Positions 3,192 to 50,269 of a stretch of 64,000 bases of DNA are shown here, in pieces. The position numbers and the translations under genes were made by a program. Source of the DNA: Haloferula luteola (lineage in GTDB: Bacteria; Verrucomicrobiota; Verrucomicrobiia; Verrucomicrobiales; Akkermansiaceae); NCBI RefSeq assembly GCF_014201715.1, contig NZ_JACHFD010000016.1, forward strand, positions 1-64,000, read 5' to 3'. The first letter of the stretch is position 1, and each line of letters starts with the position of its first letter. Below the pieces are notes generated by a model. It searched no databases. It was not told the DNA's origin and saw only the letters and a list, made by a program, of their open reading frames with translations.

Positions 3192-4940
3192 TCAGTCGAC
3201 ATGTCGAAGCCGGAAAAACCGGCGAGGAAATGACCCGGAGGCATCGACGGGTGATCCTCGGAAGATGGTGGGTTGATTGGAGTTGGGATAAGGTCCGAGC
3301 GCGTCGAGTTCGTATCCCCATTCGTAGAACACCGGGCGATCGCTATCGAAATAGATGAGAAAGCGATTTCCGACGATCTCGACCTCGGTGATGCGTAGGG
3401 TTCCAGCAGGGGGTGCCGGTTCGAAGGCCCCGGGGTCGGGTCCGTATCCGAGGACGCGGAGGTTCCCGGAAGCGTCGATGTTTTCCCATTCGTCGTTGAG
3501 AAGGTTGGCTTTCCAAAGGGTGGACAGGGCGGAGGGATAGGTGAGATGGGGATCCCCCGCCGTCAGGGGTTCATATCGCGTCTTCCCCTGCACGGTGGTG
3601 GTTTGCAGCGTTGCCGGGAGCACAAATTCGACGGGATGAAAAGGGTCCGATTGGAAGTAGCCGTGATTAGGCAGGTCTGGGTCCGCGTCTTCGAGGATTT
3701 CCTGGGTGACGTGGTTGGCGATGAATTGAGGGACTCGGTGGTTTCCTGTGAGAAGTCCCACCGAGCCATGAAAGGGCTGGAAACCATTTGCGGCGATGTT
3801 TTCGTAGAAGAGGTTTCCTTGGAAAAGGGTGGGTTGGCCTTGGGAGGAGAGCCCCACTGCCGCGCCAAGCGAGGGTGACTGATGGATGTCTCCCCCCGTG
3901 GTGTTGTAGGCGAAAGTATTGTGGGTGAAGCGGGCGGGCCCGTCGCAGCCGAGGTAGATGGCACCACTATGCACATAGGGGAATCCATGTTGGCCGGAAT
4001 GGTTTCCCCAGAAAAGGGAGTTCACGATTTCGAGATCACAGGATCCTTGGAAATAGACCGCAGCTCCTGCATTCTGGGCGTCATTGCCGCGAAATTGGCA
4101 GCGAGCGAGGGTGGTGCGAGGTGGAGAGCCCTCTGACACGTTTCCACGGATGTAGAGTGCGGCTCCGAAAGTACCAAGATTGTCGTAGAATTCACAATCG
4201 ACCAGCCGCACTGAGGGGGTCTCGAAGTAGCCGGCGGTCCCGCTGCCGTAAGGCTGATTGTCGTTGCCATTGCTACTGAAAAGGCAGCGTTCGAAGATGA
4301 CATCTGAGGGGTCGTTTTCCCCCTGGAGGTAGCAGACGACCATCCCGAGGCTGCTACTGCTATGACCTTCGGCACTATGATTGAGGAAGCGACAATCGCG
4401 GACTTCGAGGGCGCCGCCGGATTTGCAACAGATTGCTCCACCCAAGGGGGTGAGGCTGCCGGTGCCGTCGGGGCAGGCTGCGACGAACCAGATGCCGTCG
4501 AGGATGGTGGTTCCGGGAGCGGGCTCCACAGTGACCAGTCGGTCGGTGTAGAATGAGGCACCGCCATAGGGCTTCCCGTCGGGCAATCCGTCGCCATTGT
4601 TGTCAGGAATGGATCCCGAGTAGTCGCCTGAAAAGACGGTTTTGTGCTGTTCGGAATCGCGTGTTCCGCCGCCGGCAGGATAGCCGCCTTCGAGGAGAAT
4701 TTCGCCGGCAAGGAGGAAGGTTTTTTCAGGGGAGGTTCCGGGGAAATAGGTTCCCTCCGCGATGCGGATGGTGTCTCCGGGTACGGTTTCGAGAAGGGCT
4801 TTTTGAAGGTCGGGAAATGCTTCCTTCCAGGTCTTTCCGTTGGGTGAGGCGATGCGATTCGAGGCATCGACGTGCCAAATCGTGGCCAGAGCGGATGAGA
4901 GGGTGCAGGCGGCGGCGATGGAACGAATGAGAACATGCAT
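3192..4940 (-). CDS. exported right-handed beta-helix protein
   Basis: The 582-residue product begins with a signal peptide (MHVLIRSIAAACTLSSALA). It is followed by the start of a parallel beta-helix: WHVDASN, then FPDLQKAL, GDTIRIAEGTYFP and ILLEGGYP, as in polymorphic outer-membrane and choice-of-anchor proteins. Repeated helix rungs follow, such as VRDCRFLNH, FERCLFSSN, LVDCEFYDN and LARCQFRGN. The last 65 residues are a separate C-terminal module ending RRFFRLRHVD, similar to the ends of several other exported proteins in this window. The protein is probably surface-exposed; a role in adhesion or polysaccharide binding is inference. The start at 4940 is the ATG that opens the signal peptide. 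Confidence 0.85.
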   Translation of the reverse strand: MHVLIRSIAAACTLSSALATIWHVDASNRIASPNGKTWKEAFPDLQKALLETVPGDTIRIAEGTYFPGTSPEKTFLLAGEILLEGGYPAGGGTRDSEQHKTVFSGDYSGSIPDNNGDGLPDGKPYGGASFYTDRLVTVEPAPGTTILDGIWFVAACPDGTGSLTPLGGAICCKSGGALEVRDCRFLNHSAEGHSSSSLGMVVCYLQGENDPSDVIFERCLFSSNGNDNQPYGSGTAGYFETPSVRLVDCEFYDNLGTFGAALYIRGNVSEGSPPRTTLARCQFRGNDAQNAGAAVYFQGSCDLEIVNSLFWGNHSGQHGFPYVHSGAIYLGCDGPARFTHNTFAYNTTGGDIHQSPSLGAAVGLSSQGQPTLFQGNLFYENIAANGFQPFHGSVGLLTGNHRVPQFIANHVTQEILEDADPDLPNHGYFQSDPFHPVEFVLPATLQTTTVQGKTRYEPLTAGDPHLTYPSALSTLWKANLLNDEWENIDASGNLRVLGYGPDPGAFEPAPPAGTLRITEVEIVGNRFLIYFDSDRPVFYEWGYELDALGPYPNSNQPTIFRGSPVDASGSFPRRFFRLRHVD

Positions 4941-5164
4941 GGGCCTAGGTGGGGTGAAGCGCACGGCTCGTGCTGGTTCTGGCATGCCTAGGGCAATTTG
5001 GCTTCGGATTCAAGAAAGGGTCCGAATCCGAGGTGAAACTGCGAAATTTCTCCGACCTCTTTGGCGCCTAGGCAGACTGGCAGTGACCGGCCGTTAGGAC
5101 CTCGATGGAGGAAGGTGGCCGGGTCCGCTCAGTGGGCGGATTTAGGGAACGAGACCCACCGATC

Positions 5165-6724: not shown

Positions 6725-6755
6725 GGCAAGAATTCGTGGAGTTGCGCAGGGAAGC

Positions 6756-10458: not shown

Positions 10459-12177
10459 TTAGGGGTTTTCCGTGATTCTGAAGAACCCACGGGTTTCAAA
10501 TCCAGAAGGGACGGGAATGATGATGGGAGAGTTGGCGACATCTTCGAATCCGGGAACGGGTGTGAAGGGAGACATCAGATCGGGGGACGCTGAAATGGAG
10601 TAGGTGGTGGACGGTTGAGGATCAAACTCCAGTGTCGCATGAGTGGTGGATCCGGCACCGTCGCGCTGCAATGCGGTCAGTCTGAAATGCAGATCGGGAA
10701 TGATGGGCATGGGGAGGGCGAATGCCGCGATGCAGCCCGTGCAGAATCCGGGTTTCTGAAAGGTTCGATTTTCCGGATTGGCAGCATATTCCGCGAGGGT
10801 TTGGAAGCCCTCAAGTTGGCCCCCTCCAGAGGCTTGGAAGTAGTTCGCGCCGGCAAGATTGTGTGGCTCCAGTCGATTGCCGGGGGCGTCTTCGCCCCAG
10901 TAGTAGAAGTTCAGGAGGTTGCCCCCGTAGGTCGAGGTGGTGATGGTGGCATTGCTGTTCGTGATGAAGTCGCTGACGGTGGCATACTCGCCGATGTCGC
11001 CATCGATCGTGGCATCCCCTTCGTAGACCACATAGAAGCCGCCGGTATGGGGATCATAGGAGGCCCCGTGAATGGAGTTCGCATCGAAGGCTTCGTAACG
11101 GGGATCGCCCTCCGTCGGAATATCGGCGGCGGTGTTGCTCAACCAATCGGCGACGGTGGGCCAAGTGACCACGTCTCCGTAGAGATTGATGCCGTAAACG
11201 ATGCCAGAGGTGGGGTCGCAGGTGAATGCCTGGTACTCCCGATAGCCGAATTGGCTGGCCTCGTGGAACCCGCCGCGGAAGTTGGCCACATCTGCGACCG
11301 GAACCTCACCGCTTTGAATTCCGCTGAAGCCGTAGATTTCTCCGTCGTCGCCCACGAAATAGAGGAAGCGATCGTCCGTGATCACCGGAGGTTCGGGGGC
11401 GTCTCCGGTGACGGTGACAGAGAGGTTGTCGAAATGGATCGGCCCGGAATTGGGTGCGATGTCGAAGACGAGGTAGCGGGAGGTGAGTGAAATCCCGAAG
11501 TTTCCACTGTCGATGGGAGTCGTTCCGTCATTCAGGTAGATCTCGTAGGTCGACAGTTGCCCGATGGTGGTGTCGACATCTTGAAAAACGAGCCGCAATT
11601 CGACGGGTTCGCCGTAAGGGAGATCGGCGGCGATGGATTGGTTGACATCTCCTCCATTGGGATTCGAACTGGCATCGATGCGTTTGAAGATTTCCGCGCT
11701 GGCTTGATTGGCATTTGCGGCGAGCTGGATTCCGAACGGTACGGCGTCCACCGTTTGCGCAGGTGCCGTGGCAAGCGAGAACGAGCAACGGCGATTGATG
11801 GTGTCGACCGTGTCGTTGTCGATCGTGAGGTTGATCTCGTAGATTTTGCCCCGGAGATCGTCGCCAAAGTCGAAGGCGGTGAAGCCATCGGCGGTGAGGG
11901 TGATGGATCCGATGTTGGGGGCTGGGTCGATGCGGAGCGCATTGTCGTCGATCGAGTAGGCGGTATCGGCTTTCGCCGCTCCGCTGGCGTAGTAGGAGAG
12001 CGAGACGTCTACGCTGGCTTGACCACTGAGGCGCGATTCCAATGAGGAGTTGACCCCGTCGGTTCCGAAGCCTGTGGTGTTGGAGCTTCCTTCGCTGAGG
12101 TCAAAGGTATCGGAAAAGATCAGTTGGGCTTGGGCGGAAAAGGGAATGAGGAAGGCAATCGGAAGGATGGATTTCAT
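10459..12177 (-). CDS. exported protein of unknown function
   Basis: This 572-residue protein has a short signal peptide (MKSILPIAFLIPFSAQAQ). It continues with a beta-rich region up to about residue 265 that reads like a concanavalin-like jelly roll (FSDTFDLSEG near the start, FDNLSVTVTG at its end). The middle part (FLYFVGDDGEIYGF, then FTCDPTSGIVYGINLYGD) looks like a few blades of a beta-propeller. The last 75 residues form the recurrent C-terminal module of this window, ending RGFFRITENP. I do not recognise a specific family. It is probably secreted or surface-attached. No neighbour suggests a function: the MFS gene upstream is separated by 228 bases. Confidence 0.8.
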   Translation of the reverse strand: MKSILPIAFLIPFSAQAQLIFSDTFDLSEGSSNTTGFGTDGVNSSLESRLSGQASVDVSLSYYASGAAKADTAYSIDDNALRIDPAPNIGSITLTADGFTAFDFGDDLRGKIYEINLTIDNDTVDTINRRCSFSLATAPAQTVDAVPFGIQLAANANQASAEIFKRIDASSNPNGGDVNQSIAADLPYGEPVELRLVFQDVDTTIGQLSTYEIYLNDGTTPIDSGNFGISLTSRYLVFDIAPNSGPIHFDNLSVTVTGDAPEPPVITDDRFLYFVGDDGEIYGFSGIQSGEVPVADVANFRGGFHEASQFGYREYQAFTCDPTSGIVYGINLYGDVVTWPTVADWLSNTAADIPTEGDPRYEAFDANSIHGASYDPHTGGFYVVYEGDATIDGDIGEYATVSDFITNSNATITTSTYGGNLLNFYYWGEDAPGNRLEPHNLAGANYFQASGGGQLEGFQTLAEYAANPENRTFQKPGFCTGCIAAFALPMPIIPDLHFRLTALQRDGAGSTTHATLEFDPQPSTTYSISASPDLMSPFTPVPGFEDVANSPIIIPVPSGFETRGFFRITENP

Positions 12178-14313: not shown

Positions 14314-16938
14314 ATGTTGACTGCTCATTTGACACCCCTGACGTGTGCTTCGCATCCGTTGTCTTTATGCCTGATTTTATTGTCGGTCGGCTTTGTGCCG
14401 CGAGAATTGCGGGCGGCGGATTTCGAGCCGATTTGGGAGATTCCCTATGATGGCACGACAGGGCAAGGAGCTGCCTTAGGGGATGTGGATGGCGATGGGG
14501 ACGTGGATGCGATTCTGACTGCGGATACCGATGGATCGATTCTGCTGCTCAACAATGGGAACGGCGTGTTGACTCAAGCGGAAGGGGCAGAAGCGTTGCC
14601 GAGTGCGGCGGAAGCCGCGTTTGGAGATGTGGATGACGATGGGGACCTTGATGTGTTCTTTGCGCGCTATCTGAACTCCTGCGAGGTTTGGTTGAATGAC
14701 GGGAATGGCGTCTTTTCAAACAGCGGACAGAGCATCGGCAGCGTCGCGGAATGGAGCGACGTGAAGTTGGTGGATGTCGATGGGGACGAGGATTTGGATG
14801 CGGTGGTGCCGACGGACAGTTCGACGAGCGCGAATCGGATTTTCCTGAATGATGGCGACGGGGTCTTCACCGACAGTGGTCAGAGTCTGGGGATGTTGTT
14901 CACGCGGCAGGTGGATGCTGGCGACGTGGATGGGGATGAGGATCTGGATTTGGTGTTCGCAAGCAATGGAACGAATGCCGTTTGGCTGAACGATGGAAAT
15001 GGAGCGTTCACCGAAAGTTCCAATGCCTTTGGGTATGCTGGGACTTTCGGGGTGGAGTTGGGCGATCTGGACGGAGATGAAGATTTGGACATCTGGTTTG
15101 CCAATGGCCAGAATGCGGTCCCGTCGGAGGGGGCGGAGGTCTGGCTGAATGATGGTCACGGAGTTTTTACGGACAGTGGCCAGAGGATTGGGACGGAGTA
15201 TTCCTTCGACGTCGAATTGGTGGATTTGGATGGTGATGGGGACCTTGACGCGGTGGAGGGCACCAATAGCACCCAGCCGAACAAGGTGTGGATCAATGAC
15301 GGATCCGGCCAGTTCAGCGACAGTGGTCGTGCTCTGGGGTACGGGAGAATTATCAGTTTGGTGAGCGGTTCGCTGAATGGGGACGCCCGGCCGGATTTGC
15401 TGTTGAGTGGGAACCTGGATCCTTCTGAGGTGTGGCTGGGCGCAGCGGCGCCGATCTACATCGGGGATAGTGGCCAGAGATTGGGTGGGGGAGCGATCAC
15501 CAGCGTGGCCTACGCGGATGTGGACGGCGACGGAGATCTCGACGCGGCGATGGGAGCGGTGGGTGGCAATGTGCGGATTCTCTTCAATGATGGAACCGGG
15601 GAGCTGACGGAATGGGGGGCGGCGCTACCCAACGGCTTTGGTAACAGCGTCGGATCTCTGGCGTTTGGAGATTTCGACGGCGATGACGATCCGGATCTGG
15701 TGGTTGGAACGATTGAGTATTCTGCCTTGGCCGATTGTCAGACCCGGCTTTGGAGAAATGACGGTGCGGGGGGATTCCAGCAGGTGGCGGTCTTGGAGTC
15801 GAGCGGGCCCACCGAGGCGCTTGTCACGGCCGATGTCGATGGGGACCTGGATCTCGATATTGTGGCTGCCACCCAAATGTATGGGATTTATAGTGGACAG
15901 AATCACGTCTACCTCAATGGCGGGGGAGGGTCCTTTACCCGGATGGATGAATTGGGGAGCAGTTATTGCTTTGATCTGGTGCTGGTGGACGTCGATGACG
16001 ATGGGGATTTGGATGCAGCCCTGGCGGTCAACAATGCACCGAATGAGGTTTGGTTGAATGACGGATCCGGGGGCTTTGTGACGTCGGGTCAAGCGTTGGG
16101 GGCGTCACGGACGACGGCACTGCTTGCGGGTGATGTGGACGACGATGGGGATCCGGATTTGGTGTGTGGAAACCGTGGTGCTGCGAGTGTGATCTACCTC
16201 AACGACGGTGATGGAGTTTTCTCGGCCAGCGGCGCCTCGATTGGCAATGGGCAGACTCAGGCTCTGGCATGGGTTGATGCGAATGGGGACGACGCGCCGG
16301 ACCTTTGGATCGGCAATGGCCTCAATGGCAAGGCCGTCGATTGGATCTATCAGAACGATGGAAGTGGACAGTTTGTTTTGACTCAAAGTCTTCCGGCGCG
16401 GTCGACATGGGGTTTGGCGGCGGCCGATTTCACGGGGGATGGAGCGGTGGACGTGTTGCTTGCGAGCCGCGATGGTGAGCATGGGCTGTGGAGTTTGCCG
16501 CAGGCGGGAGTGGACGCTGAGTCGTATGCGGGGTTGTTTGGTCTAACCGGGGAGGACCAAGGTGCGGACCGCGATCCGGATGGGGATGGGTTGCCGAATT
16601 CATTGGAGATGGCGTTCAATTTGAATCCGGCTGTGGCGGATGCTCATCTGAGATCGGGCACGGTGCATTCGACTCAGGGATTGCCGGTGTTGCGTGTGGA
16701 GAAGGTGGGGGAGCGACTGGCCTTGCAGGCAAGAGTCATTCGCCGGAAGAATGCGCCCAATCTCGACTATGCGTTGCTTGCGAGTCCTCGCTTGTCATCG
16801 TTTGTTGAGCCGAATGGGGTGGAGGTAACGACGCAGGGAGTCGATGACGACTATGAGTTGGCGACTTACACTTATTGGGTTCCTGAGGGAAGCGAGGCGT
16901 ATTTTGGGACGGTGTCTGTGGATTACACGGAGCCTTAA
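14314..16938 (+). CDS. exported FG-GAP/VCBS repeat protein
   Basis: After a signal peptide (cleavage near RELRAADF) the 874-residue protein carries about twelve FG-GAP/VCBS repeats. Each has a calcium-binding DxDxDGDxDL loop (for example DVDGDGDVDA, DVDDDGDLDV, DVDGDEDLDA) and then VWLNDGNGVF. These build an integrin-alpha-like beta-propeller. Near residue 755 a DPDGDGLPNSLEMAF segment is a calcium-binding linker of thrombospondin type 3 kind. The last 85 residues resemble the recurring C-terminal module (NLDYALLASPRL, then AYFGTVSV). The start is the ATG at 14314; a TTG at 14305 is also possible. It is probably a secreted or surface calcium-binding adhesion-type protein (inference). Confidence 0.88.
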   Translation: MLTAHLTPLTCASHPLSLCLILLSVGFVPRELRAADFEPIWEIPYDGTTGQGAALGDVDGDGDVDAILTADTDGSILLLNNGNGVLTQAEGAEALPSAAEAAFGDVDDDGDLDVFFARYLNSCEVWLNDGNGVFSNSGQSIGSVAEWSDVKLVDVDGDEDLDAVVPTDSSTSANRIFLNDGDGVFTDSGQSLGMLFTRQVDAGDVDGDEDLDLVFASNGTNAVWLNDGNGAFTESSNAFGYAGTFGVELGDLDGDEDLDIWFANGQNAVPSEGAEVWLNDGHGVFTDSGQRIGTEYSFDVELVDLDGDGDLDAVEGTNSTQPNKVWINDGSGQFSDSGRALGYGRIISLVSGSLNGDARPDLLLSGNLDPSEVWLGAAAPIYIGDSGQRLGGGAITSVAYADVDGDGDLDAAMGAVGGNVRILFNDGTGELTEWGAALPNGFGNSVGSLAFGDFDGDDDPDLVVGTIEYSALADCQTRLWRNDGAGGFQQVAVLESSGPTEALVTADVDGDLDLDIVAATQMYGIYSGQNHVYLNGGGGSFTRMDELGSSYCFDLVLVDVDDDGDLDAALAVNNAPNEVWLNDGSGGFVTSGQALGASRTTALLAGDVDDDGDPDLVCGNRGAASVIYLNDGDGVFSASGASIGNGQTQALAWVDANGDDAPDLWIGNGLNGKAVDWIYQNDGSGQFVLTQSLPARSTWGLAAADFTGDGAVDVLLASRDGEHGLWSLPQAGVDAESYAGLFGLTGEDQGADRDPDGDGLPNSLEMAFNLNPAVADAHLRSGTVHSTQGLPVLRVEKVGERLALQARVIRRKNAPNLDYALLASPRLSSFVEPNGVEVTTQGVDDDYELATYTYWVPEGSEAYFGTVSVDYTEP

Positions 16939-20335: not shown

Positions 20336-21178
20336 GTGAGCCGGATCGGCGTCATTGCCCCGTTGATTGGGTGGATGGTTTCCGCGGGATTCGCGGAGGC
20401 TCAGTATTTGCAGTTGGCGGAGGATCTTCCTGGGGAAGCCACGGATGTGGGGCACGAGGATTGGATCGAGATCACGGGATATGTTTTGAAAGGGCCGGAT
20501 GGCGGAGGAAAAGAGACTTCCTTTTCCCTTCAAAAGGCGATCGATCGCAGCTCTCCCTTGCTGCTCGAGGCTTGCTTGACGGGTCGGCGATTTGATGGCG
20601 CTGTGCTGGAGTGGATGCTTCCCGACGATGAGAAGAGTGTTTTCTGTCGCTTGGAGATGGATGGCGTTTTTGTTACGGCGGTGAGACCTTCCGCGATGGG
20701 CGACGATGCCTTTTCGGAAGAAGTGGCGTTTGCGGTGACCCGTCTCACTTATCGATATCGGGCCGATTCGAAGGATGAAGTGGAGGTCTCTCTGGATGGG
20801 ATTTCTCAAGATGGAGACGACGACGGGATGGCGGATGCCTGGGAATTGGAATACGGTTTGGACCTGGAGAGTGATGATGGCGCTCTGGATCTCGACCATG
20901 ATGGCCAATCCAATTTGAGTGAATTTTTGGCCGGCACCGACCCCACATCCGGGAGTTCCTTTTTCAAGGTGGAGATTGAGATCGATCCGGAAGCGCCGGA
21001 GCAGTGGCGGCTGCGCTGGAACAGCCAGGAGGGAGTGAGCTATCGCATTTTGTGGTCGCCCGATTTGCTGACTCCGTTTGTGGAGTTGCAACAAGTTGTT
21101 GGCGAGGCGGAGTCGACTCAAAAGGAAGTGATGCGTCAGGCGAGCCTTGGATTTTTCAAGGTGGAGCGGCTGCCATGA
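20336..21178 (+). CDS. second exported Hcp-like protein with calcium-loop and C-terminal module
   Basis: This 280-residue protein uses a GTG start, four bases after the previous stop; no ATG gives a full signal peptide. The signal ends near AEAQ. An Hcp-like domain follows (YLQLAEDLPGEATDVGHEDW, IEITGYVLKGPD, then FSLQKAIDRSSPLLLEACL and VAFAVTRLTYRY). Next is a DGDDDGMADAWELEYGLD calcium-binding segment of thrombospondin type 3 kind, with DLDHDGQSNLSEFLAGTDP. The last 70 residues match the recurrent C-terminal module (YRILWSPDLLTPF, ending FFKVERLP). It is thus an Hcp paralogue fused to parts usual in surface proteins. It overlaps the methyltransferase gene by ATGA. Confidence 0.8.
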   Translation: MSRIGVIAPLIGWMVSAGFAEAQYLQLAEDLPGEATDVGHEDWIEITGYVLKGPDGGGKETSFSLQKAIDRSSPLLLEACLTGRRFDGAVLEWMLPDDEKSVFCRLEMDGVFVTAVRPSAMGDDAFSEEVAFAVTRLTYRYRADSKDEVEVSLDGISQDGDDDGMADAWELEYGLDLESDDGALDLDHDGQSNLSEFLAGTDPTSGSSFFKVEIEIDPEAPEQWRLRWNSQEGVSYRILWSPDLLTPFVELQQVVGEAESTQKEVMRQASLGFFKVERLP

Positions 21179-23900: not shown

Positions 23901-24926
23901 ATGAAAATGCCCACCTTTCTGTTTTCACTTCTTTGGTCGCTGCCATTGGCAGCCGCGGAGGCACCTGCGACCGCTGGGATGCAGTCAGCCGCCGAGGCCT
24001 TGATGAAGTTATTGACGGAGGCTCAGCGGAAGGATGCGGTATTTCCCTTCCAAAGTGATGCACGTGAAGACTTCCGGTACACGCCACGGGAGCGAAGCGG
24101 ATTGCCATTGGATCGGATGGAGCCTGAGCAGCGGGAAGCCGCGATGGCTCTGCTGGATACGGCATTGAGTGAAGAAGGGAGACTGAAGGCCGATCAAGTG
24201 AGGGTTCTTGAAGGGGTGCTCCGTGATTTGGAGGGTCGACCCGAATACCGCGATCCCGGGAAATACTACCTTTCTCTGTTTGGAGACCCCGGAGCTGCGA
24301 GCGGATGGGGGTGGAAGTTTGAGGGGCATCACCTTTCGTTAAACTACACCATCGTCGGGGGAGAAACCCTCGTGGTGACGCCTTCGTTCATCGGTTCGAA
24401 CCCCGGGGAGGTCCGTCTGGGTGAGCATCAGGGATTGAAGGTCCTGCGAGCGGAGGAGGAGCGGGCGAAGGCTTTGGTCACTCTGTTGCTGAAGGAAGGT
24501 CGGGATGAAGTGGTTTTCAGCACGGAAGCCCCTGCGGAGATTCTCACCGGCGAGCAGCGCAAGGCGGACGCCACGAAGCTCGTGGGTATTGCCGTTGAGG
24601 ACATGAGCCCGGCAGCAAAGGAGGCGTTGATCGCGTTGATTCAGGTTTATACCGGACGTCACCGAGCAATCTGGGCAGAGGCGGATTGGAAGAAGATCGA
24701 GGCGGCGGGTGTCGAGAAGATCCACTTTGGATGGGCGGGTGGAACTGAAGACGGGAAGCCCTGGTATTATCGGGTGCAGGGACCGACGTTCATCATGGAA
24801 GCGGCGAACACCCAGAATGATGCCAACCATGTGCACACGGTCTGGCGAAGCTTTGATGGGGATTTTGGGCGCGACATGCTGCGCGATCATTATCGGCAGC
24901 ATGAGGTCGACCACGGAAATCATTGA
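23901..24926 (+). CDS. DUF3500 family exported protein
   Basis: This 341-residue protein has a signal peptide (MKMPTFLFSLLWSLPLAAA). The DUF3500 pattern follows: PFQSDAREDFRYTPRERSGL near the start, then YYLSLFG, WGWKFEGHHLSLNYTIV, TPSFIGSNPGEVR and late HFGWAGG with YYRVQGPTFIMEAANTQND, ending in a histidine-rich HVHTVWRSF...HYRQHEVDHGNH. The family is exported and of unknown function; the conserved histidines suggest metal binding. The start at 23901 has GGAG upstream; an in-frame ATG lies at 23886. The last bases overlap the end of the convergent giant beta-helix gene by seven. Confidence 0.9.
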   Translation: MKMPTFLFSLLWSLPLAAAEAPATAGMQSAAEALMKLLTEAQRKDAVFPFQSDAREDFRYTPRERSGLPLDRMEPEQREAAMALLDTALSEEGRLKADQVRVLEGVLRDLEGRPEYRDPGKYYLSLFGDPGAASGWGWKFEGHHLSLNYTIVGGETLVVTPSFIGSNPGEVRLGEHQGLKVLRAEEERAKALVTLLLKEGRDEVVFSTEAPAEILTGEQRKADATKLVGIAVEDMSPAAKEALIALIQVYTGRHRAIWAEADWKKIEAAGVEKIHFGWAGGTEDGKPWYYRVQGPTFIMEAANTQNDANHVHTVWRSFDGDFGRDMLRDHYRQHEVDHGNH

Positions 24927-27900
24927 GATCCCCGTGGCCCATTGGCGAGGATGATCCGATAAAAGCGGCGAGAGGGCAGGGGCCCGAAATCGGAGAACTG
25001 GAGAGTCTGTCCGGGAAGGCTCAACCGGGCTTCGCCCACCCGACTCCAAGAGCTTGGAGCGAGGTCGTCGCTGCTTTCCAGTTGATAGAATTGAAAGGGC
25101 GCAGCCGCAACGGAGAGCGTGGCGGATTGCGAGTTGCGGGTCAGGCTGGACGTGGGATTCGGAGGGGGCTGGGCACCCGGTGAGACGAGGAGGCTTGCCG
25201 TGTATTCCCGGACTCCATCCGTGAATACAAAAGTGAGGGTTTCCCCGGTCGACTGGCCTGGTGCCGGCTGGTAGATAAGATAGCCATCAACGAGAAAAAT
25301 CGTACTTCTTGAATCGGAAGGATCGGACACAGAGACCAAGGAAAGTGGGCTGCCTGATCCACCCGTGACGCCTGCGAAAAGGGCCTCAAGGGAGATGCCG
25401 GTTGCGAACCCGGCTGCGAAGTCCATTTCGGGGGAAGGAGAAACAAGGTCGGGAAAGTACTCGGTGGCACCGATATCCGGCTGGGATCCGTGAATGCGGG
25501 GATAACCTCGCTGATCGAGGATCAGTGGGCTGCTCGCCCAGAGGTCCCCTGCATCGATCGCAGGGCTATCGGCCAAGAGGATGCGACTTGGGGTGGGGCC
25601 CCCGTGCATGCCCACCGGGCCCAGTCGTGCATCGGTAAGAGTGAGATCGGTGGTGAAGATACGGTAGAGCGAGGAATCGTCGCAAAGGTTGAAGCCAGAG
25701 GAAATGAGATCGGTGGTGTCGCTGTATTCGAGATTGGCGCCACCTACCGGGAGGGCAACGATCGAACGACTGAGGGTCACCGTTCCAAGATAGGTGAGGA
25801 GGTTCGCGCCAGTGGTGGCGGAGTTTTGCGTGAGGGTCACGTGGGTGAGGTTCACGGTTCCACTGTCATTTTGAATGCCGCCCCCCCATTGGGTTCCGAA
25901 GCTCTGAATGCTGTTGCCGTCGATGAGGGTGTTTTCGATCTTCAAATAGCCGTCATGATTGCTGATGCCGCCCCCTGCGAAGGCTGAGACATTGTTGAGG
26001 ATGGCCGATTGGGTGATTGTGAGATGGCCCTGATTGAAGATACCGCCGCCATAGCTCAGCGCGAGCCCGTTGGAGCGGTTGGCATTGCCTGCGATGGTGC
26101 ATTGATCGACCCGCAGGGTGCCAGCGTTGGCGATGCCTCCGCCGTTGGCACGGGGATTTCCGTTGGAAAGGGTGAGGCCACGGAGGTGAACGTTTGCAGT
26201 GGTGCCCACGTCAAGGATACGGAAACCGGAGCTGCTGTCGCGAGTGATCTCCAGTTGGTCGGCGCCGGGTCCGACGATGTCCACCTTTCCGGTGAGAGAC
26301 GGCAGCGCGGAGGTGATGGGAAGAGTGCCATCGAGGTCGAAATCGATGATGCTGAGGCCCGGTTGGGCGTTGGCGGCGGTGATGGCTTCGCGCAAGCTCC
26401 ATCCATTTCCATCGCTGGGATGGGCATCATTTTCATCGTTGGCGGTGGTGACGGTGAGATACTGAGGGGAAAGTTCGAAGGCGCCGAGATCGCGCCCGCG
26501 GCCTTGGTCGCGAGCTTGTCCTCGTTGATCGAATTCCCACGCGGTTCCTTGTGTTGCGGAGTCGACGGCCGGGCTTTCGGGTAGAAGAGCATGAGTGGGC
26601 GCAGGGCCGCCGAGATCGGCGATCACCGGGTCGAGAAGGTCACTCAGGCTGGAAGAGGTCGACTCAAAGCTAAGCAGCGTTGCGGAGGTCTCCTGTCCAC
26701 AATCGGAGGCGTCTCCAAGGAAGTTGGTGCCAAAGAACTGGATAGGGTTGGTTCCGGCTTTGAGGTCGTGGACGATGTCGTCAACGGGCACGATGACGCC
26801 GCCTACTTCCTGCTGGGTAGACGAAGCCGTATTGCCAGCGATGATGCTGTTGCGGAGGGTGATTTGTGTTGCCTGTGAGGTCGAAACCCCTCCTTCCGTG
26901 GCTTCAAGGTGGAGATAGAAGGGGAACAGGGTGCCGTCGGGATGGAGCGTGCCGCGGTGGGCGGAGTTTCCGGTGATGGTGGTTTGGTCGAGGTGGAGTT
27001 TCTGGGAAGCCACAACACCGCCTCCAAAGACCCAGGAGGTGAAGACGATTCCTCCATGGGCCGAGTTGCCGGAAATGGTCGATTGGATGAGCTCTAGCTC
27101 CTGAGCAAAGATGCCTCCCCCGGCGATGGATTCGCTGCCGCTTTCTTCCGAGTGGGCATGGACAGCATTGTCGCGAACGGTGCTGTCGACGAGACGGAGG
27201 ACGTCGGCTTCAATCGCTCCGCCATAGACATGGCCGCCGCTCATCAAACCAGCGGTGGCGGAATTATTGGCGAAATCGGAGCGCTCGATGATGACCGAAT
27301 CGCGATGGGTGAAGCAACAGGCACCACTGCCTGCGTAGGCACCACCATCGGTCTTGAGGTGAATGGATCCGTCTCCTCCTTGAGCGATGTTTTCAGAGAA
27401 GACGGAGTCGGTGATATGAGCCGGCCCAGTCGCGACTAATGCACCGCCCCATGCTGAGCGGCCGAGGGTGGTGGAGTTGGTCGAGCCGGTGCCGCCTCTC
27501 GCGGCATTGTTCGTGAATCGGCAATGAGACAATTGGAGGGATCCATCGTAGATGGCGAGAGCTCCGCCATGGGCATCCCCACCTACGGAGGTGAGGGATG
27601 AGCCTCCCCAGGCGCGGTTCCCAGAGAATTCGCAGTTTTCGGCGTAGAACGAACCACCCCGGCACGCGATGGCTCCTCCGTGAACATCCCCTCCGTATTT
27701 CCGCACGGCGGCATCGCTCACGCCGATGGAGAGATGGTCTGCGATGCGGCAATTGAAGAGGGCGAGGGCTTCCGCGGTACTGTCGATGGCGGCGCCAGAC
27801 GAGAGATCACGAGTGGTGGCTGCCGAGAGTCCCTGGACGATGGCAAGATCATGAAGGGAAACCTGGGTGGCGGAGCCGGAAATTTTCAACACCCGGTGCT

Positions 27901-34059: not shown

Positions 34060-34095
34060 CTTGTCGATTTCGGAAAGGGGAGGCGATGATGCCTT

Positions 34096-36183
34096 TCAGG
34101 AGGTGGCGATTTCTGTGCGGATGCGAAGGAATCCGCGGGAAGGTGGGTGCTCTGGGTCTCCGAGGCGGAAGGATCGGTAGATCCAACCCTCGGGAAGTTC
34201 GGGGAGAAAGTCGGACAATGGCTGGGAAACTTCCGTCACCTCCAGATCCGGTGGGCCCCCGGGAAGTGAGGATCCCTCGATTTGATACATGAAGCCATCA
34301 ACGACTTCGGAAACCAAGGGAGTCCCGCCCGTGAAGAGGATGTTTCCCCGGACGGGAAGCGTGATATGATAGGCCTGCTCGACGGTGTCGAAGCGGCTCG
34401 TGAGGGTGGTGGATTCGGTGGATTGCGGATCCTGGCAGAGGGCGAACTCCAAGAGATTTTCAAGGCCATCGCCATCGGGATCGTCAAGGGGATCGCGGCG
34501 AGTGATGTCGGGGAGATGAGAGGCGGCCCACTCGGCATACTGGAGACCTAGTTCTCCAGCAGGAATGGTAAGGGTAAGACTTCGAGAGTTGTGGTAGCGA
34601 ATCAGGAAGGCATGGCCATCGACTTCGATGCGGCTTCCGCTGGAGGCGTTGGCGAGGTCGCCCTGAATGAAGTGAGTGGCCTCAAGTAGGGTGAATTGTG
34701 AGCCAGGGAGAAAGGGGCCCGCTTGAAGAAGGTGAAGTGAAAGTCGTGCTCCTCCGAGATCGGCAGCGCCATCGACCTGGATGAGGTCGGAGGTCCCGCT
34801 GATCGGATCGAGGTCGATCGCTAATTCGGCGGAAGAGGCAAGGGTGAGCGGACCGCAGGTGAGAGTGCCGATGGAGGGGTGGAGAAGGGGAGGGGGTGGC
34901 GGAGCCTCACCGAGAGTTCCCGACAAGACGAGGGATCCTTCTTTCACAAGTGTGGGGCCGTGGTAGTGATGGGATCCACGAAGAATCAGTGCTCCGTCGC
35001 CGAGTTTGGTGAGACCGCCATCGATGGACCCTGGCGGGGTGGATAAGGGGGCCTCCACGGTGATGTCATGCCCTGCGGAATCGATGAGGGCTCCCGCGGG
35101 GCCTATCGGCACGGAAGAGAGACTTGCAGGCAGAAAGTTGGGGTCATTTTCCAAAGCAACCAATCGCCCGCCATTGAGGTGAAGAGTGGATTGGGCAGGG
35201 CTTGCAGGGTCCGACAAGGCACCATCGAAGTGGATCACCTCCAGCGTGCCGCCATCAAGGACGAGCGTCCCCGTGGAGCGTGCTCCTTGAGATAGGTAGA
35301 TCTTTCCGACGGTGGCGTGGGCCTCGTCTGAAAGGCGCCAGGAGCCCGTGCCTCCTTTCTCGCCGAACCAGACCGGACTGTTCAAACTGGTGAGGGAACC
35401 GCCGGATTGTTCGAGGGAGCCGAATCCGGTTTCTCCGATTCCGAGGATCAAAGCGGTGGTGGTTCCGGTTTTGGTCAGGCTGCCGCCGGTCATCGACAGG
35501 TGTCCTGTCGCACCGTTGCGGCCAATGACCCACCAGTCGGTTGCTTTCACCACACCGTCCCCGGCCAATCGATACTCGGCAGCCAGGGTGCCTGCTCCGG
35601 CACTGCCGTTTCCGAGGTAGAATTCGCCATTCGCCTCCAAGGTGCCGCCGGAGTGTTCGATGCGGCCAAAACCATGGGCGGAGGCAGAGTCGGTGTGTGA
35701 GCCAACGGTGAATGCATCTCCGCGATGGGAGAAGGAGCCTCCAGTTAGAGTGAGGAAGCCATGGCCAGCTTGGGATTGGGATGCTTCGCGGCCACCGATG
35801 GTGACGCGATCGTATTGGGTGATGGAGCCACCATCGATCAGAAAATGACCGGTGGCGTTGGCTCCGCAGCCCAGGCGCAATTCACCGAGTGAGGAGATGC
35901 GGCCTCCAGAGAGGTGAAAGGTCCCTAGGGTTTGGGCGGCATCTCCTGCGCGGAGGTCAGAAAGCGTCCACGAAGAGGGAGTGCCCGTGATGAGTACGGT
36001 GCCGCCGTTGTTGACGATGGCGGCATCATTTCGACCGGGAAGGGTTCCATCGCCGGTCCAACGTGCAGCCTCGGCAAATTCCGCGGATTCGACGTTCCAG
36101 TAATGATCCGTGGCCGTGGCGAAAGAGGCATGAAACAGGCCAATGAGAAGGGTGCCAAAGCCGACGGGGCGAGTCCAAAGCAT
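34096..36183 (-). CDS. exported autotransporter-associated beta-strand repeat protein
   Basis: After a signal peptide (MLWTRPVGFGTLLIGLFHA) the 695-residue protein has many beta-solenoid repeats: FHLSGGRISSLGELRLG, FLIDGGSITQYDRVTIGG and LSMTGGSLTKTGT. A canonical PATR unit follows (GGLTKLGDGALILRGS, then GPTLVKEGSLVLSG). There is no C-terminal beta-barrel, so it is not a type V autotransporter. A DPDGDGLENLLEFALCQDP calcium segment follows near residue 580. The end is the recurrent C-terminal module (FMYQIEGSSL..., RGFLRIRTEIATS). The next gene, 36 bases on, encodes the GH43 enzyme, so both may act on the same polysaccharide. Confidence 0.85.
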   Translation of the reverse strand: MLWTRPVGFGTLLIGLFHASFATATDHYWNVESAEFAEAARWTGDGTLPGRNDAAIVNNGGTVLITGTPSSWTLSDLRAGDAAQTLGTFHLSGGRISSLGELRLGCGANATGHFLIDGGSITQYDRVTIGGREASQSQAGHGFLTLTGGSFSHRGDAFTVGSHTDSASAHGFGRIEHSGGTLEANGEFYLGNGSAGAGTLAAEYRLAGDGVVKATDWWVIGRNGATGHLSMTGGSLTKTGTTTALILGIGETGFGSLEQSGGSLTSLNSPVWFGEKGGTGSWRLSDEAHATVGKIYLSQGARSTGTLVLDGGTLEVIHFDGALSDPASPAQSTLHLNGGRLVALENDPNFLPASLSSVPIGPAGALIDSAGHDITVEAPLSTPPGSIDGGLTKLGDGALILRGSHHYHGPTLVKEGSLVLSGTLGEAPPPPPLLHPSIGTLTCGPLTLASSAELAIDLDPISGTSDLIQVDGAADLGGARLSLHLLQAGPFLPGSQFTLLEATHFIQGDLANASSGSRIEVDGHAFLIRYHNSRSLTLTIPAGELGLQYAEWAASHLPDITRRDPLDDPDGDGLENLLEFALCQDPQSTESTTLTSRFDTVEQAYHITLPVRGNILFTGGTPLVSEVVDGFMYQIEGSSLPGGPPDLEVTEVSQPLSDFLPELPEGWIYRSFRLGDPEHPPSRGFLRIRTEIATS

Positions 36184-36511
36184 CCGCGCCGCAAGCAGGT
36201 GCCAAGCCGACCCTCCATGGGAACAGCACGGGAATCTGCGTGGATGGCATCGCCATCATCCAAGAGAGGGCCGAGAAACGATTCTTCCCAGGCGCGTGGG
36301 AGAGGCATGGCGCCGTTCCTTTTCTGCGAAACTTCGAAATCAGAGCGAAAGAAAGAGCGAGTTGGGGAAAAAATCGGTTTTCGGCGAACGGATGCCCGAG
36401 AGGGGACATGCAGTGATGATGCGTCGCTTCTCCCTTCGGTGGGCCTTTGTCGACGTCGTCGAAAACCGGGAAACCCGGAAACCCAGCCTCAAAACCCAGA
36501 CCCCTTTTTTC
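36184..36511. other. divergent intergenic region
   Basis: This 328-base region lies between the autotransporter-like gene and the large sulfatase gene, which are read away from each other. It must hold both promoters. I see no confident promoter hexamers, operator or RNA motif, and no ribosome-binding site before the sulfatase ATG (a C/T tract precedes it). Confidence 0.5.
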
Positions 36512-39500: not shown

Positions 39501-39802
39501 TGGAAGAACGAGGAAGCGAGGCTCTGGTGGAGTGGCTTTCCCGGTGGGCGGAGCGTCTGGTGAATGGAGGGAAGTCACGCGAGGAAACTCCGTCTCCTGA
39601 GTCGTCATTCCACCAAGAAGGGAACGGAGGTCGCCTGCGTCTGCAGTCCGAGCCGTTTCTGTTCTACGAACTGTGGGATTCCGAAGACCTCTCAGATTGG
39701 ACCTACCTTTCCACGGTGCAGTCGTCGGAGGGTGGTGACATTGAGGTTCCGGTGTCGATGACCCAGCCCCAGCGATTCTATCAGGTGAGAGTGAGACAGT
39801 AG
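36512..39802 (+). CDS. large multidomain exported sulfatase
   Basis: This 1096-residue protein has a signal peptide. A first domain (about 24-235) is closely similar in order and sequence to the PEP-CTERM protein encoded just downstream. An Ig-like domain follows (about 240-315; SVRLSWDVFGADSV and TTYSLVATN), then a further beta domain (about 330-510). The sulfatase domain starts at NIIVFLADDMGMGDTS and has Cys572 in CTPTR as the formylglycine site, then VGKWHLG and ASDNGAEIND. The last 60 residues are the recurrent module (FYELWDSEDLSDW, ending RFYQVRVRQ). It should desulfate an extracellular polysaccharide. It is more than twice the usual sulfatase length because of the added domains. Confidence 0.9.
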   Translation: MTYRHRSFGAALACSFVLCPADAEILVRSTGTGSGDSEVGILAEIDASGNGASGTTLWEVTGQLSEAAAFGSGVRWKFDAMKNVSIDPSTWGDELKDGAIDRDGNGLIGVQGNPNGGGIGADAENREGIAIRVDEFQGLPEGMAVRITRLNIRNVGRSGTDPVGTEAFTIVNLQTRQAMEVVPTEGSEGDFDVSGLDLVRGVGDPGPVAALISGETGGFRIDGLNFIVQEGLGDLPPVIGSFVANDRALSQGQSVRLSWDVFGADSVTLEPGGVVVDATGMLMLSPTETTTYSLVATNEQGSRSAELKVWVDDEPATPSGPVGRDGIRYATGDVAILNEPPVSVQSGDSESLSHLQLIPERLGVVLESGMEVDHRVHGAATVVGTEEDSGSLPVGTALNSYLFHADLPGEAPDTVVSATVTFDAPILGLVHRTGSEPVAGFANRFAQSDATFGLEGMQFESTDLARRSAEDESVDEFTISPDGFTLAVTFHLSGDGDPLDELRVITRGDSSIPAASAPNIIVFLADDMGMGDTSVYQDWSGLPDSGQVSTPAMERLADLGVRFTDAHAQNRCTPTRYALMTGRYAWRAGLLNGVLMGSVKPPLIEMERPTLPGFLRSQGYATAMVGKWHLGLEYRQDGGAPAEGWADASFGVPMRDTPVDHGFDDFFGFSRSHLTSGPDGQDGNGPAQDVGPGWIENRRPVGATGRGKELDGSYDWDHMGQVMWDRARDFMQTHVGHQAARERPFFLYYASHSNHQVYTPDVAVDGIPVQGESRWKDGSTTGDVRRDFVYLNDVLLGRLMDYLESTEDPRNPGHPLLDNTLLIFASDNGAEINDNRAVGNLRAFKARIYEGGHRVPMMAYWKNGGVGDGLEGNGGLTRDDLIGLQDVFPSVAEILGSPLPAPQDGGDAAVDGFSRADVILNREAKPRPPIFTNEQEGKNWLALQFHGTLPLDPPAEGYWKILFGPPLLNQANAGTGSAVPLELYNLETDRLEEHNLLEERGSEALVEWLSRWAERLVNGGKSREETPSPESSFHQEGNGGRLRLQSEPFLFYELWDSEDLSDWTYLSTVQSSEGGDIEVPVSMTQPQRFYQVRVRQ

Positions 39803-39902: not shown

Positions 39903-40667
39903 ATGAAAAACCCACTGACTCCCCTTGTTCCCGTCCTTGTCCCGGCGCTGCTGGTATCAGCCGCATCGGGCGCGGTAGTGATCGATTCGATCAATAACGG
40001 CGACGGCATGTCGGAAATCTCTTTGAATATCAATATCGACGGTTCCGGAGCGGTGACCACCGGGAGTCCGTGGTTTGCGCTTTCGGGATCCATCACCGAA
40101 GCCGGTGCGTTTGGTGGAACGATTGGAGTGACCTTTGATGCCGCGAAAAATCTCAGCACGCTGACCTCGACTCTTGGCGACGAGTTGGAGGAAGGGTACT
40201 TTGACCGAGACGACAATGGCTACATGGGGGTGCAAGTTGACCCTAACAGTGGAGGAATCGGAGCGAATGCGAGCAATCATGAAGGCGTCACGATCGCTTT
40301 GGATGAGCTGACCGGCATCGATCCCAGTGTGGGGGTGCGAATCTTGAGCATCAATATTCAGAATGTCGGCCGGGTGGGGACGGATCCTGTGAACGAGAGT
40401 TTCACGGTGGTGAATCTGCTGACTCGCGATTCGTTGACATTCATACCGGTGGAGCAGTCGCTCTCGGCAGGCAGCTTCGACGTCTCCAGCCTGAATCTTT
40501 ATCTAACCGGTGGTGGATCTGGGGCCCTGGCCGCGATCGTTTCCGGTGATGTCGGTGGATTTCGCATCGACGGTCTGACTTTGGAAACTTTTGCCGTTCC
40601 TGAACCGTCAGTGACTCTCTTGGGAGGATTGGGATTCTTTGGGCTCCTCCGGCGACGGAGGGCTTGA
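39903..40667 (+). CDS. PEP-CTERM sorting-domain protein
   Basis: This 254-residue protein has a signal peptide and a beta-rich body. Its C-terminus is a PEP-CTERM signal: VPEPS, a hydrophobic stretch VTLLGGLGFFGLL and RRRRA. PEP-CTERM proteins are processed by an exosortase, which is not in this window. The body has the same blocks in the same order as residues 24-235 of the sulfatase just upstream: GDELEEGYFDRDDNG, GGIGANASNHEGV, NIQNVGRVGTDPV, then TVVNLLTR and SGDVGGFRIDGL. The two genes are 100 bases apart on the same strand and may share a transcript or derive from one another by duplication. A strong terminator follows. Confidence 0.9.
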   Translation: MKNPLTPLVPVLVPALLVSAASGAVVIDSINNGDGMSEISLNINIDGSGAVTTGSPWFALSGSITEAGAFGGTIGVTFDAAKNLSTLTSTLGDELEEGYFDRDDNGYMGVQVDPNSGGIGANASNHEGVTIALDELTGIDPSVGVRILSINIQNVGRVGTDPVNESFTVVNLLTRDSLTFIPVEQSLSAGSFDVSSLNLYLTGGGSGALAAIVSGDVGGFRIDGLTLETFAVPEPSVTLLGGLGFFGLLRRRRA

Positions 40668-44871: not shown

Positions 44872-45079
44872 CCCGGCGGCTACGTGAGGGTGACTAGGGA
44901 TGTTGCAGGGATCTTTCCGAGCTGCGGACCGCTGCCGCGAGGCGGGGATATGCCAGTGCCCGCGATCGATCGGGGTACTCAAAACCATCTCGCACCCGCG
45001 GGGGAGATCGAGATGTCTAGCGAGTCGACAGGGTGAGGCGTGTTTGACCCATTTGGATCGGGTCGGGTAGTTTCGATGG

Positions 45080-49100: not shown

Positions 49101-50269
49101 TCGGCTATGCGTCGATTTCTGAGGGGCCCGATGGCTGCGTTTATGTGGGAGGAAACTCGATGCGCGGTGTGGGATCGGAGAGTCCGTCGCTGGTTCTTAC
49201 CAAGCTGACACCGGACGGAGAGTGGGTGGATTCGGTGCTGGTGGGCTGCAATGAGGCGTCGGGTGAGCTATTCCACCGCGGGGAGACTCCCTACGATACA
49301 GTACGGGGGATGACGTGGATCGATGGGAACTTGTGGATTTGTGGAAACGTGGGTCTTTACAACAGTGGCGGAATTTCGGGCGCCGAGGCCGATGGTGAAT
49401 CGGGCTTTACCGCGATGGTGAGCGAGAATCTGGATGTGTCCCGGTTTGTGATTCACGCGGGACCCTCGACGGATCGGTTTCATGAAATCGAAGTCACAAC
49501 CGATGGGTTGCTTGTGGTCGGATCGAGCCGTTCGTTTCACCCTTGGCCGAGCGGTGCTGGCGGGGAGGATTCGGTGACTCCCACGGCTTTGATGGTTGCG
49601 ATGTTGCCGTGGGAGGGTCGCACCCGATTCCATCTGGCGTCAGCTGGTTCATCGGGAGACGACGCAGGAACGGTATTTGTGTTTCCGCGCATTCGGGCCG
49701 TCAGCCAGTACACGATGGCGACGAATCAAGGTCACTTTGCAGGCTTGGGGTTGCTCAATATCACGGAGTCGACTTCATCGCGGCCCGTGATCACTCCTGG
49801 GGCGTATGCCGCGACCCATCAGGACTTTAGCATGTGGCCGAATGCGATCGAACCCTTCGAATTCAAGTCTTTGGAATTCTTACCCCGTTCGCTCATCACG
49901 GATCGGGCTTCATTCATGGAGTGGTATCAGATGGATGGCAGCTTCAATGGGGATGGCGACGCGTTCCCGGCGGGTACGGAGTTCTTTCTTGGGACGGACC
50001 CTGGGAAGCCGGATTTCGAGGTGATCGGTTTTGAGCGTTTCCTGGACGATATCACCGGTGATCCATGGGTTCGCTATCGGCTGCCTCGATCGTTGATGTC
50101 CGGCGATGAAGTTCCCGGGGTCGGTTCATCCCATCTGTTGGAGGCGTGGGAGGACCGGGACGATGTGTCGGTTTTCACGGAACCCCGTGATTCCAAAACG
50201 GAAACCCTGCGGTTGGAACTCCCCGCTCCGGAACCGAAGGCGTTCTATCGGTTGTCTCTTCCTGAATAG
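46115..50269 (+). CDS. very large exported multidomain protein
   Basis: This 1384-residue protein has a signal peptide (cleavage near ISWGEV). The N-terminal half holds beta-sandwich domains: a likely PPC-type domain (IYKLELNLGEST), a CARDB-like domain (LVISAEVENRGNTSWPEIRL), and long beta regions. The second half (about 780-1260) is a beta-propeller-like region with repeats such as LKWAVNAGGTFLPYDAVADA, VVKLNASGEPLWSRTYAL and LTKLTPDGEWVDSVLVG, similar to delta-60 or SBBP repeats. FNGDGDAFPAGTEFFLGTDP is a calcium-type segment. The end is the recurrent C-terminal module (HLLEAWEDRDDVSVF, ending AFYRLSLPE). No known function. The start is the ATG at 46115 after an AGGG. Confidence 0.82.
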   Translation: MSLIAGFISQLGCIGRWRHLLVGAVVASVPQISWGEVTPTDFHAYADLEAVFSASTGEVVEDAKDEMGEWQAGVRDLALSLDSLEMWKISGASEARQFPVRDEGDFLRYVASTVIDFERQALANSVSGTVTTTATAGLSFQFEVMDEAMPVQLLFEATLEADFLMTLRSLSGGGEIYSESSPHGSGFTGTLVPGIYKLELNLGESTTRSEVGEHVFVELAVGNESEEAPLPVEGRYSHPDMHTSHSGEGLLDLKGIQVLSETSRGDGSTALVISAEVENRGNTSWPEIRLEVVEAPSPEVETEVSFGVFALDAGETGSPEVGNEAVVIVADEDLETFRSQLLDGTRLQVSGEESAVFRFPVRPLVEADLPKHALAEPEDFTSSGDVLSFAPLFGSGTAVVEWEPFFKAPLQVSIEKQLLEDDIIQWVQNVDRILPVLVKDVRLEPTGFRVEFFTEVLPYRFSLLDLMIDGRMVCPNVPEAHPAGIAVTEVPETRQGAHEGALGKFPSPVPFHFNDIRLGEGIRVSGSFGFRPQSIDLTLDMRDAVVHELSVRTRYQADCNLLLETEEGASNESEPWVSKTATLLDLPLFSITLPAGFRFEPRLTLEAGAEISAPTSLSVPLTAGLDIDLTAGYRDGEAFYENEFEPIPLHVSDPGLYEALGAEASAWIDCEIAGLMGAGGGGVMTGPTLGIRAQGDFRVAPLDDPWWSAEAHLTAFAGIELNLAGWVDLVDAEHDLASWPLFDVGSGGPLVSNAGAKSLNSQPGFRPLGNPKTRWMRSLLPDSNGVPLSRCFAQPLHGTDDWLVGGGSPVESILARLSPEGELKWAVNAGGTFLPYDAVADADGGFTAVTSSSGAFRLVHFDGTGEVIWKKEVGVPSGILWFRTVGIATREGAEGAEYFVAGQVYGPPDLTLQTAVVKLNASGEPLWSRTYALETDTAGAMGMTKDGDVLVAASSTMDLGATNFLTNITSNGWVMKIDGDSGDYLWGNLQGFRYGVGYASISEGPDGCVYVGGNSMRGVGSESPSLVLTKLTPDGEWVDSVLVGCNEASGELFHRGETPYDTVRGMTWIDGNLWICGNVGLYNSGGISGAEADGESGFTAMVSENLDVSRFVIHAGPSTDRFHEIEVTTDGLLVVGSSRSFHPWPSGAGGEDSVTPTALMVAMLPWEGRTRFHLASAGSSGDDAGTVFVFPRIRAVSQYTMATNQGHFAGLGLLNITESTSSRPVITPGAYAATHQDFSMWPNAIEPFEFKSLEFLPRSLITDRASFMEWYQMDGSFNGDGDAFPAGTEFFLGTDPGKPDFEVIGFERFLDDITGDPWVRYRLPRSLMSGDEVPGVGSSHLLEAWEDRDDVSVFTEPRDSKTETLRLELPAPEPKAFYRLSLPE

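Follow-up and report, generated by a model that had tools for sequence, protein, structure and literature searches.

Exported proteins of Haloferula luteola and of other Verrucomicrobiota share a C-terminal module of about 75 residues which, judging from its sequence, is probably (we put the probability at roughly 0.55) a fibronectin-III-like (Fn3-like) domain that serves as a determinant of sorting, secretion or surface attachment in the exported proteins of the phylum. It came to light in a stretch of 64,000 nucleotides (positions 1 to 64,000 of contig NZ_JACHFD010000016.1, RefSeq assembly GCF_014201715.1), hereafter the window, which is the first 64 kb of contig 16 in a genome of 4.9 Mb and 84 contigs. 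An initial annotation of the window had claimed that seven unrelated exported proteins end in one such module, that an FG-GAP protein has a weaker version of it, and that the module is a sorting, secretion or anchoring domain distinct from PEP-CTERM. Profile searches indicate that the family is real and larger than the seven proteins first noticed, and the strongest argument for a sorting role, as the gene sequences suggest it, is the pairing of module genes with PEP-CTERM genes.

Membership and distribution of the module

The seven open frames do end where the initial annotation had them end, and the C-terminal strings quoted for them are present. Their membership was judged with a profile of 53 module copies on other contigs of the same genome, which is no blind set because its rows were found from window seeds, the end at 3192 included. 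With this profile, E values of 7e-11 to 5e-9 were obtained for the genes ending at 10459, 24920, 21178 and 39802, each match stopping 1-8 residues short of the stop codon. After the 926 window frames had been shuffled three times, the best match reached only E 0.2; a chance origin of the likeness was therefore rejected. The copies and their neighboring features, with E values from this profile, are as follows.

3195..3401, minus strand: possible divergent module of a beta-helix protein (3192-4985); E 0.36; chain end RFFRLRHVD.
10462..10692, minus strand: C-terminal module of an exported protein of 572 residues (10459-12177); E 3.8e-10, match ending 1 residue before the end; chain end GFFRITENP.
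16525..16629, plus strand: TSP3-like segment (DPDGDGLPN), from sequence, preceding the possible module of the FG-GAP protein.
16666..16935, plus strand: possible divergent module of the FG-GAP protein (14305-16938); E 0.19; chain end SVDYTEP.
20807..20947, plus strand: TSP3-like acidic segment, from sequence, preceding the module of the Hcp-like protein; an NCBIfam Amuc_1099 match begins inside it.
20960..21175, plus strand: C-terminal module of the Hcp-like exported protein (20336-21178); E 8.7e-8, and modeled with AlphaFold2; chain end GFFKVERLP.
24923..25156, minus strand: C-terminal module of a choice-of-anchor Q protein of 1650 residues (24920-29872; body by NCBIfam); E 4.9e-10; chain end RFYRIILANGPRGSQ.
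34099..34398, minus strand: possible divergent module of an autotransporter-repeat protein (34096-36183); E 0.33; chain end GFLRIRTEIATS.
34426..34539, minus strand: TSP3-like segment of the form Y-x-x-W ... DPDGDG..N..E, from sequence, preceding the possible module of the autotransporter-repeat protein.
39599..39799, plus strand: C-terminal module of a sulfatase protein (36143-39802; PF00884 body); E 4.8e-9; chain end RFYQVRVRQ.
39903..40664, plus strand: PEP-CTERM protein adjoining the sulfatase protein on the same strand; PF07589 match at 40593-40661; BLASTP E 1e-56 against the sulfatase protein.
49910..50011, plus strand: TSP3-like segment, from sequence, preceding the probable module of the 1397-residue protein.
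50012..50266, plus strand: probable divergent (long-loop) module of the 1397-residue protein ending at 50269; E 0.008 with the whole protein, 0.03 with its C-terminal stretch; chain end AFYRLSLPE.

Against the three weakest ends stands the finding that internal stretches of two glycosidase-like frames, 42922-45297 (E 0.059) and 32980-34095 (E 0.075), outscore them. In a ranking of 190 C-terminal tails without a clear module, the four weak ends among them, these ends took ranks 1-4 with an own-genome profile (50269, 14305, 34096 and 3192 in that order) and ranks 1, 13, 8 and 2, respectively, with a phylum profile. The ends at 3192, 34096 and 50269 and that of the FG-GAP protein perhaps look like divergent members, and membership is not claimed for them. 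By sequence, the claim of one module shared by all seven proteins narrows to four clear members and a likely one (50269), the ends at 3192 and 34096 being possible members, and the weaker version attributed to the FG-GAP protein is likewise a possible one. The Hcp-like protein consists of an apparent signal peptide and an Hcp-type domain (PF05638, 57.7 bits), followed by the TSP3-like segment and the module.

A first profile built from five window ends (3192 included) gave 25 own-genome matches at E <= 10, five of them its seeds, and an 18-row profile gave 68 at E <= 1, 45 of these at E <= 1e-3; two of the 68 were left out of the own-genome set, and C6:220276, a glycosidase-like false positive by eye, was kept among the 58 rows at E <= 0.06. 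Among the 45 stronger matches, the distance to the stop codon is at most 8 residues for 36, 9-45 residues for two, and larger or open for seven. Internal copies are not as common as terminal ones, because, counted by protein with a different profile, the module lies within 10 residues of the C-terminus in 42 of 49 own-genome proteins and 70 of 78 proteins from other genomes (112 of 127 together). When one best locus per genome was taken, 26 of 29 ended within 4 residues of the C-terminus, one at 23 and one more than 500 residues from it, and one ran off the stretch. Of 288 genomes sampled from the phylum, 145 are matched by the own-genome profile and 149 by a 48-row phylum profile, the latter spanning 84 of 151 genera and 46 families; on plasmids, a tblastn search with one module as query gave no match.

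Carrier bodies recognized by Pfam include sulfatase, alpha-L-fucosidase, alpha-L-rhamnosidase, GH31, BNR, legume lectin, LRR, nuclease and Hcp-like domains, and a reprolysin-like peptidase body occurs below the Pfam cut-off. The proposal of a C-terminal module on exported proteins with differing bodies, distinct from PEP-CTERM, is borne out; read directly, the seven window ends contain no PEP motif with a hydrophobic helix and basic tail. The domain is uncatalogued in Pfam and NCBIfam, no match over the module having been seen to reach its cut-off in either library. We found no published title or abstract opening that describes it, which does not by itself establish its absence from print.

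Sequence, predicted fold and chain end

The module carries a conserved F-[YF]-R-[VIL] strand and commonly ends in Pro or an acidic residue, its consensus being roughly ..VTLTWPSVPGRTYQVERSTDLGSWTPVG...TTLTDPAPP...RRFYRVEVEEP-stop. Among 48 aligned copies the most conserved positions are a Gly (96%), a Tyr (90%), a Leu (96%), a Trp (94%), a Phe (94%) and an Arg (90%). AlphaFold2 models made from the window sequences alone have a mean predicted local distance difference test score (pLDDT) of 77 for 10462..10692 and 66 for 20960..21175, with five and six strands of at least 3 residues, respectively. Both align by VIA to Fn3-type domains, at Z scores up to 6.8 and 7.3 that are moderate (below 8), the fold neighbors having been taken from the families in the VIA lists. 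The second model ends at a position equivalent to about residue 76 in Fn3 chains of 93 residues; the module corresponds to Fn3 residues 1-76, and strand G would be missing. An 83-row profile gave a near-full alignment with five canonical Fn3 domains of the same genome (65 columns, score 27.4, P 3e-5) that stops at Fn3 column 72 of 90, and 100 column-shuffled controls peaked at 17.4; an earlier 32-row profile had aligned over 34 columns only. We prefer the Fn3 fold because of this strand order and full-length alignment: by profile and model the module appears, provisionally, to be Fn3-like, with strands A-F and a chain ending where strand G would start.

The end of the chain is itself constrained. 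The strand F motif is present in 46 of 50 own-genome tails, the other four lacking the motif searched for, and the chain stops 2-10 residues (median 5) beyond it. A terminal Pro is found in 23 of 42 own-genome module proteins, compared with 14 of 81 controls (Fisher P 3e-5), and in 31 of 70 from other genomes, compared with 10 of 109 (P 1e-7); Ala or Val is the last residue in 0 of 112 C-terminal module proteins. Just before the module, a TSP3-like segment occurs in 13 of 42 own-genome and 22 of 70 other proteins, as opposed to 2 of 81 and 0 of 109 control tails over a comparable stretch. Controls were the longest non-overlapping frames of at least 200 residues rather than called genes, and frames cut on their 3' side by the end of a locus were left out.

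Pairing with PEP-CTERM genes and the case for a sorting role

The PEP-CTERM protein at 39903..40664 is identical in 100 of 218 residues (46%) to the N-terminal region of the adjoining module-bearing sulfatase protein. Throughout the genome, a PEP-CTERM gene on the same strand is the neighbor, within 400 bases, of 10 of the 62 module genes, and 5000 random placements gave a mean of 0.47 pairs and a maximum of 5, none reaching 10; this count used 62 of the 68 module places and 56 of the 60 PEP-CTERM places, with gene extents taken as stop-to-stop frames and the extents of contigs C14 and C52 guessed. Seven of the ten pairs share a homologous body at E <= 1e-4. Two pairs outside the count, one homologous (C9) and one not (C17), bring the total to 8 of 12 compared, at 28-74% identity, and the pairs at C7, C21, C10 and C17 have no homologous body at that threshold. 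At C4:132934, C20:52463, C1:181197 and C8:197518 (second copy), the alignment ends near the point of divergence into PEP-CTERM on one side and the module, with or without a TSP3-like segment, on the other. A thirteenth own-genome locus, C20:60141, has no PEP-CTERM frame, and among four more adjacent pairs in other genomes one aligns at 39% over 98 residues, one over 32 residues only and two not at all. Because these sister genes share bodies and differ at their ends, the module appears to take the place of a known sorting signal, and since it is placed where PEP-CTERM sits, it probably decides where the protein goes. As to PEP-CTERM itself, the genome has 60 PF07589 places, 46 of them above the cut-off and some clustered (three at C8:82030-84135).

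According to the sorting interpretation, cargo would cross the inner membrane by Sec, and the folded terminal domain, with its open edge at strand F and the conserved Arg there, would be recognized either in the periplasm or at the outer membrane, perhaps through a partner strand that takes the position of strand G. Release of the cargo, or its retention at the surface, would follow; exosortase would process the PEP-CTERM sister. A bolder version, which we consider speculative and on balance doubtful, is an undescribed, phylum-wide export or attachment pathway of Verrucomicrobiota in which the incomplete Fn3 domain is captured by the donor strand of an envelope partner, with tandem genes giving anchored and delivered forms. 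If it were true, the same body domain would fall under both this pathway and exosortase, and each cell would have a paired anchored and delivered form. Members of the phylum export many sugar-acting enzymes and sulfatases, and the route by which these reach the surface or are retained there is poorly known; an uncatalogued, terminal and abundant domain that is interchangeable with PEP-CTERM could provide a marker for the cargo of one such route and a handle for its machine.

Five genomes of one genus of the same family, g2 (genomes of 2.2-3.5 Mb), have a bearing on several of these points. The genus is probably Akkermansia, and the finding may therefore bear on the surface proteins of a gut bacterium. 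Of their 28 matches 22 were read, and five of these were judged by eye to be F5/8 type C domains and set aside; the remaining 17 module loci all end 2-9 residues from the stop codon, 11 of them in RRFLRLKVTRE. In one g2 genome, a PMP-repeat protein, a GLUG protein, a sulfatase-like protein with PA14 (the sulfatase-like assignment being below the Pfam cut-off) and a GH18 protein share their last ~128 residues at 54-62% identity. The g2 loci L256-L282 carry, on differing bodies, a C-terminal unit of the form Y-x-x-W...GDG..NLMKYATGL...KPCG[ST]VT...RRFLRLKV with one conserved Cys.

Several observations weigh against a sorting role or the fold on which we base it. The module lies more than 45 residues from the end in 5 of the 49 own-genome and 4 of the 78 other proteins, and it is near the N-terminus in L250:1193-3994 (own contig C4), L251:1384-4428 (own contig C5) and L253:1256-5839 (genome G268). 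Copy number is graded rather than all-or-none, running from one match (15 genomes) to at least 20 (36 genomes). A crude test indicated a signal peptide in 30 of 42 own-genome proteins with the module (controls, 38 of 81) and in 29 of 70 from other genomes (controls, 33 of 109); frames cut by the locus end on their 5' side would come out negative. In three of the four g2 proteins with 54-62% identical ends, a BACON domain precedes the shared unit, so that some relatedness extends to their bodies. Pairing with PEP-CTERM genes may in part mirror a general clustering of secreted-protein genes, its null being random placement, and with Foldseek alone neither model had a PDB match at E <= 0.001. SprA, the translocon of the type IX system, was found over cut-off in 0 of 288 genomes and not in the own genome, in a search without a positive control. 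The homologous-body pairing supports sorting or attachment as the initial annotation had it, but a strictly C-terminal signal is not what the internal copies indicate. The three proteins with an N-terminal module have differing C-termini, in which Pfam named no domain; two are flanked by TSP3-like segments, two have HELGH/HEIGH peptidase-like motifs, and their architecture resembles that of polymorphic effector proteins.

The internal copies and graded copy number would fit a passive accessory domain of large extracellular proteins (a stability cap, a glycan- or matrix-binding domain, or one packing against TSP3) that was added at gene 3' ends by happenstance, as would carriers rich in lectin-like and sugar-acting domains and a fold resembling the common Fn3 kind. 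We regard this as a serious possibility, though clearly less probable than a sorting role: it does not readily account for 112 of 127 copies being C-terminal, for a conserved last strand and biased terminal residue, for tandem sister genes that swap the module for PEP-CTERM, or for four proteins of one g2 genome with 54-62% identical ends. The module could instead be the export signal of the type II secretion system of the phylum, which would agree with the finding that each of the 83 genomes carrying seven or more modules has a GspD-like secretin (E 1e-60 or better), and with a maximum of six modules in each of the 47 listed genomes in which GspD is weak or absent. We consider this improbable. 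The GspD search does not separate type II from pilus secretins, genome size and relatedness confound the association, and the link has exceptions, because the five g2 genomes have no GspD match at 1e-30 and still keep C-terminal modules at all 17 loci; the type II system was accordingly rejected as a necessary partner. In two further genomes with weak GspD, six of eight loci read are C-terminal within 10 residues and two are internal.

Two more readings identify the module with a known family, and both seem to us very unlikely, the second still more so than the first. A truncated F5/8 type C (discoidin, CBM32) carbohydrate-binding domain is suggested by weak Pfam matches (PF22633 in 13 of 48 members, best E 0.0011; PF00754 in 6 of 48), by the true F5/8 type C domains that the module profile picks up as false positives, and by a PDB profile search in which discoidin chains 2rv9/4zxe came out best (E 1.3e-4 over positions 11-70; 8.5e-4 over 10-51 with another profile, which placed the Fn3-like 3mpc third at E 0.0012 over positions 9-70). 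However, the match to the discoidin chain, which has 136 residues, extends only over residues 57-117, both structure models align to Fn3-type domains across the module, and the own-genome F5/8 type C profile aligns with the module over 20 columns (P 0.004), compared with the 65 columns obtained for Fn3; on that short alignment it was rejected as the parent family despite the best PDB sequence match. A type IX secretion domain, belonging to a system so far unnoticed in the phylum, would have the same outline of exported cargo, C-terminal beta-sandwich and one near-invariant basic residue. Against this, NCBIfam matched five families among 32 members at E <= 1 and none of the type IX system, whose C-terminal domain models TIGR04183 and TIGR04131 are presumably in that library, and the SprA search, made without a positive control, gave no match over cut-off and one sub-threshold match of 51 positions among the 288 genomes; type IX identity was rejected on these grounds.

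With respect to candidate machinery, a type II system has been suggested for alginate lyases of a verrucomicrobium in a paper whose main text does not contain the term 'C-terminal' (PMC13274419). The outer-membrane proteome study of Akkermansia muciniphila describes the Amuc_1098 secretin as its most abundant outer-membrane protein (PMC4960237). The Amuc_1098/Amuc_1099 pilus-like system may be a place to look for the machinery, and no more than that. The Amuc_1099 homologue of H. luteola (C9:84440-85456; full-length family match of 390 bits, none in 14 controls) has a TSP3-like segment and no module, so the NCBIfam match of the Hcp-like window protein reflects its TSP3-like segment, and Amuc_1099 identity was rejected for that protein. 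Beside the homologue lies a frame with repeat-like helices that, by eye, resembles the start of an Amuc_1098-type secretin.

Comparison with known systems

The nearest Pfam likeness is to DUF3999 (PF13163, a 424-position model of unknown function), found in 7 of 48 members with a best E of 5.3e-6 and limited to one stretch at profile positions about 123-193; the matches shown score 20.2 and 22.4 bits, below the 30-bit cut-off, and the member at E 5.3e-6 is probably under it too. F5/8 type C domains share the stretch Y-x-I-x-x-S-x-D-x-x-x-W, and only about half of the domain aligns. Fn3 (PF00041) is collinear with the module over strands A-F by model and profile, the module being without strand G, but the Pfam fn3 gathering score is not reached (1 of 48 members matches, at E 0.054), PF00041 is absent from the matches of 32 members, and to our knowledge the near-invariant G..Y....S.DL....W...F-Y-R is not typical of Fn3 domains. 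Chaperone-usher pilins have an Ig-like domain without strand G that is completed by a donor strand; the same lack is predicted for the module, whose carriers, however, are enzymes.

PEP-CTERM shares with the module its C-terminal place, its occurrence on exported proteins of the same genome and even homologous bodies in adjoining genes. The module is a predicted folded domain, whereas PEP-CTERM consists of a PEP motif, a hydrophobic or transmembrane helix and a basic tail, a signal first met in Verrucomicrobium spinosum according to its discovery paper (PMC1569441). The closest functional parallel would be the type IX C-terminal domain, of which the module is not a member by the tests run. The two would differ in strand number, the type IX domain being seven-stranded and the module having predicted strands A-F, and they differ in the 9 of 127 copies lying more than 45 residues from the end and perhaps in SprA, for which the search had no positive control. 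Nevertheless, the type A domain of Bacteroidota is likewise a C-terminal Ig-like beta-sandwich on Sec-exported cargoes with a conserved chain end (PMC11285876), and the type IX domain has, according to another report, one highly conserved basic residue (PMC10994853), as the module has its Arg. By this analogy, the module may well work most like a type IX C-terminal domain.

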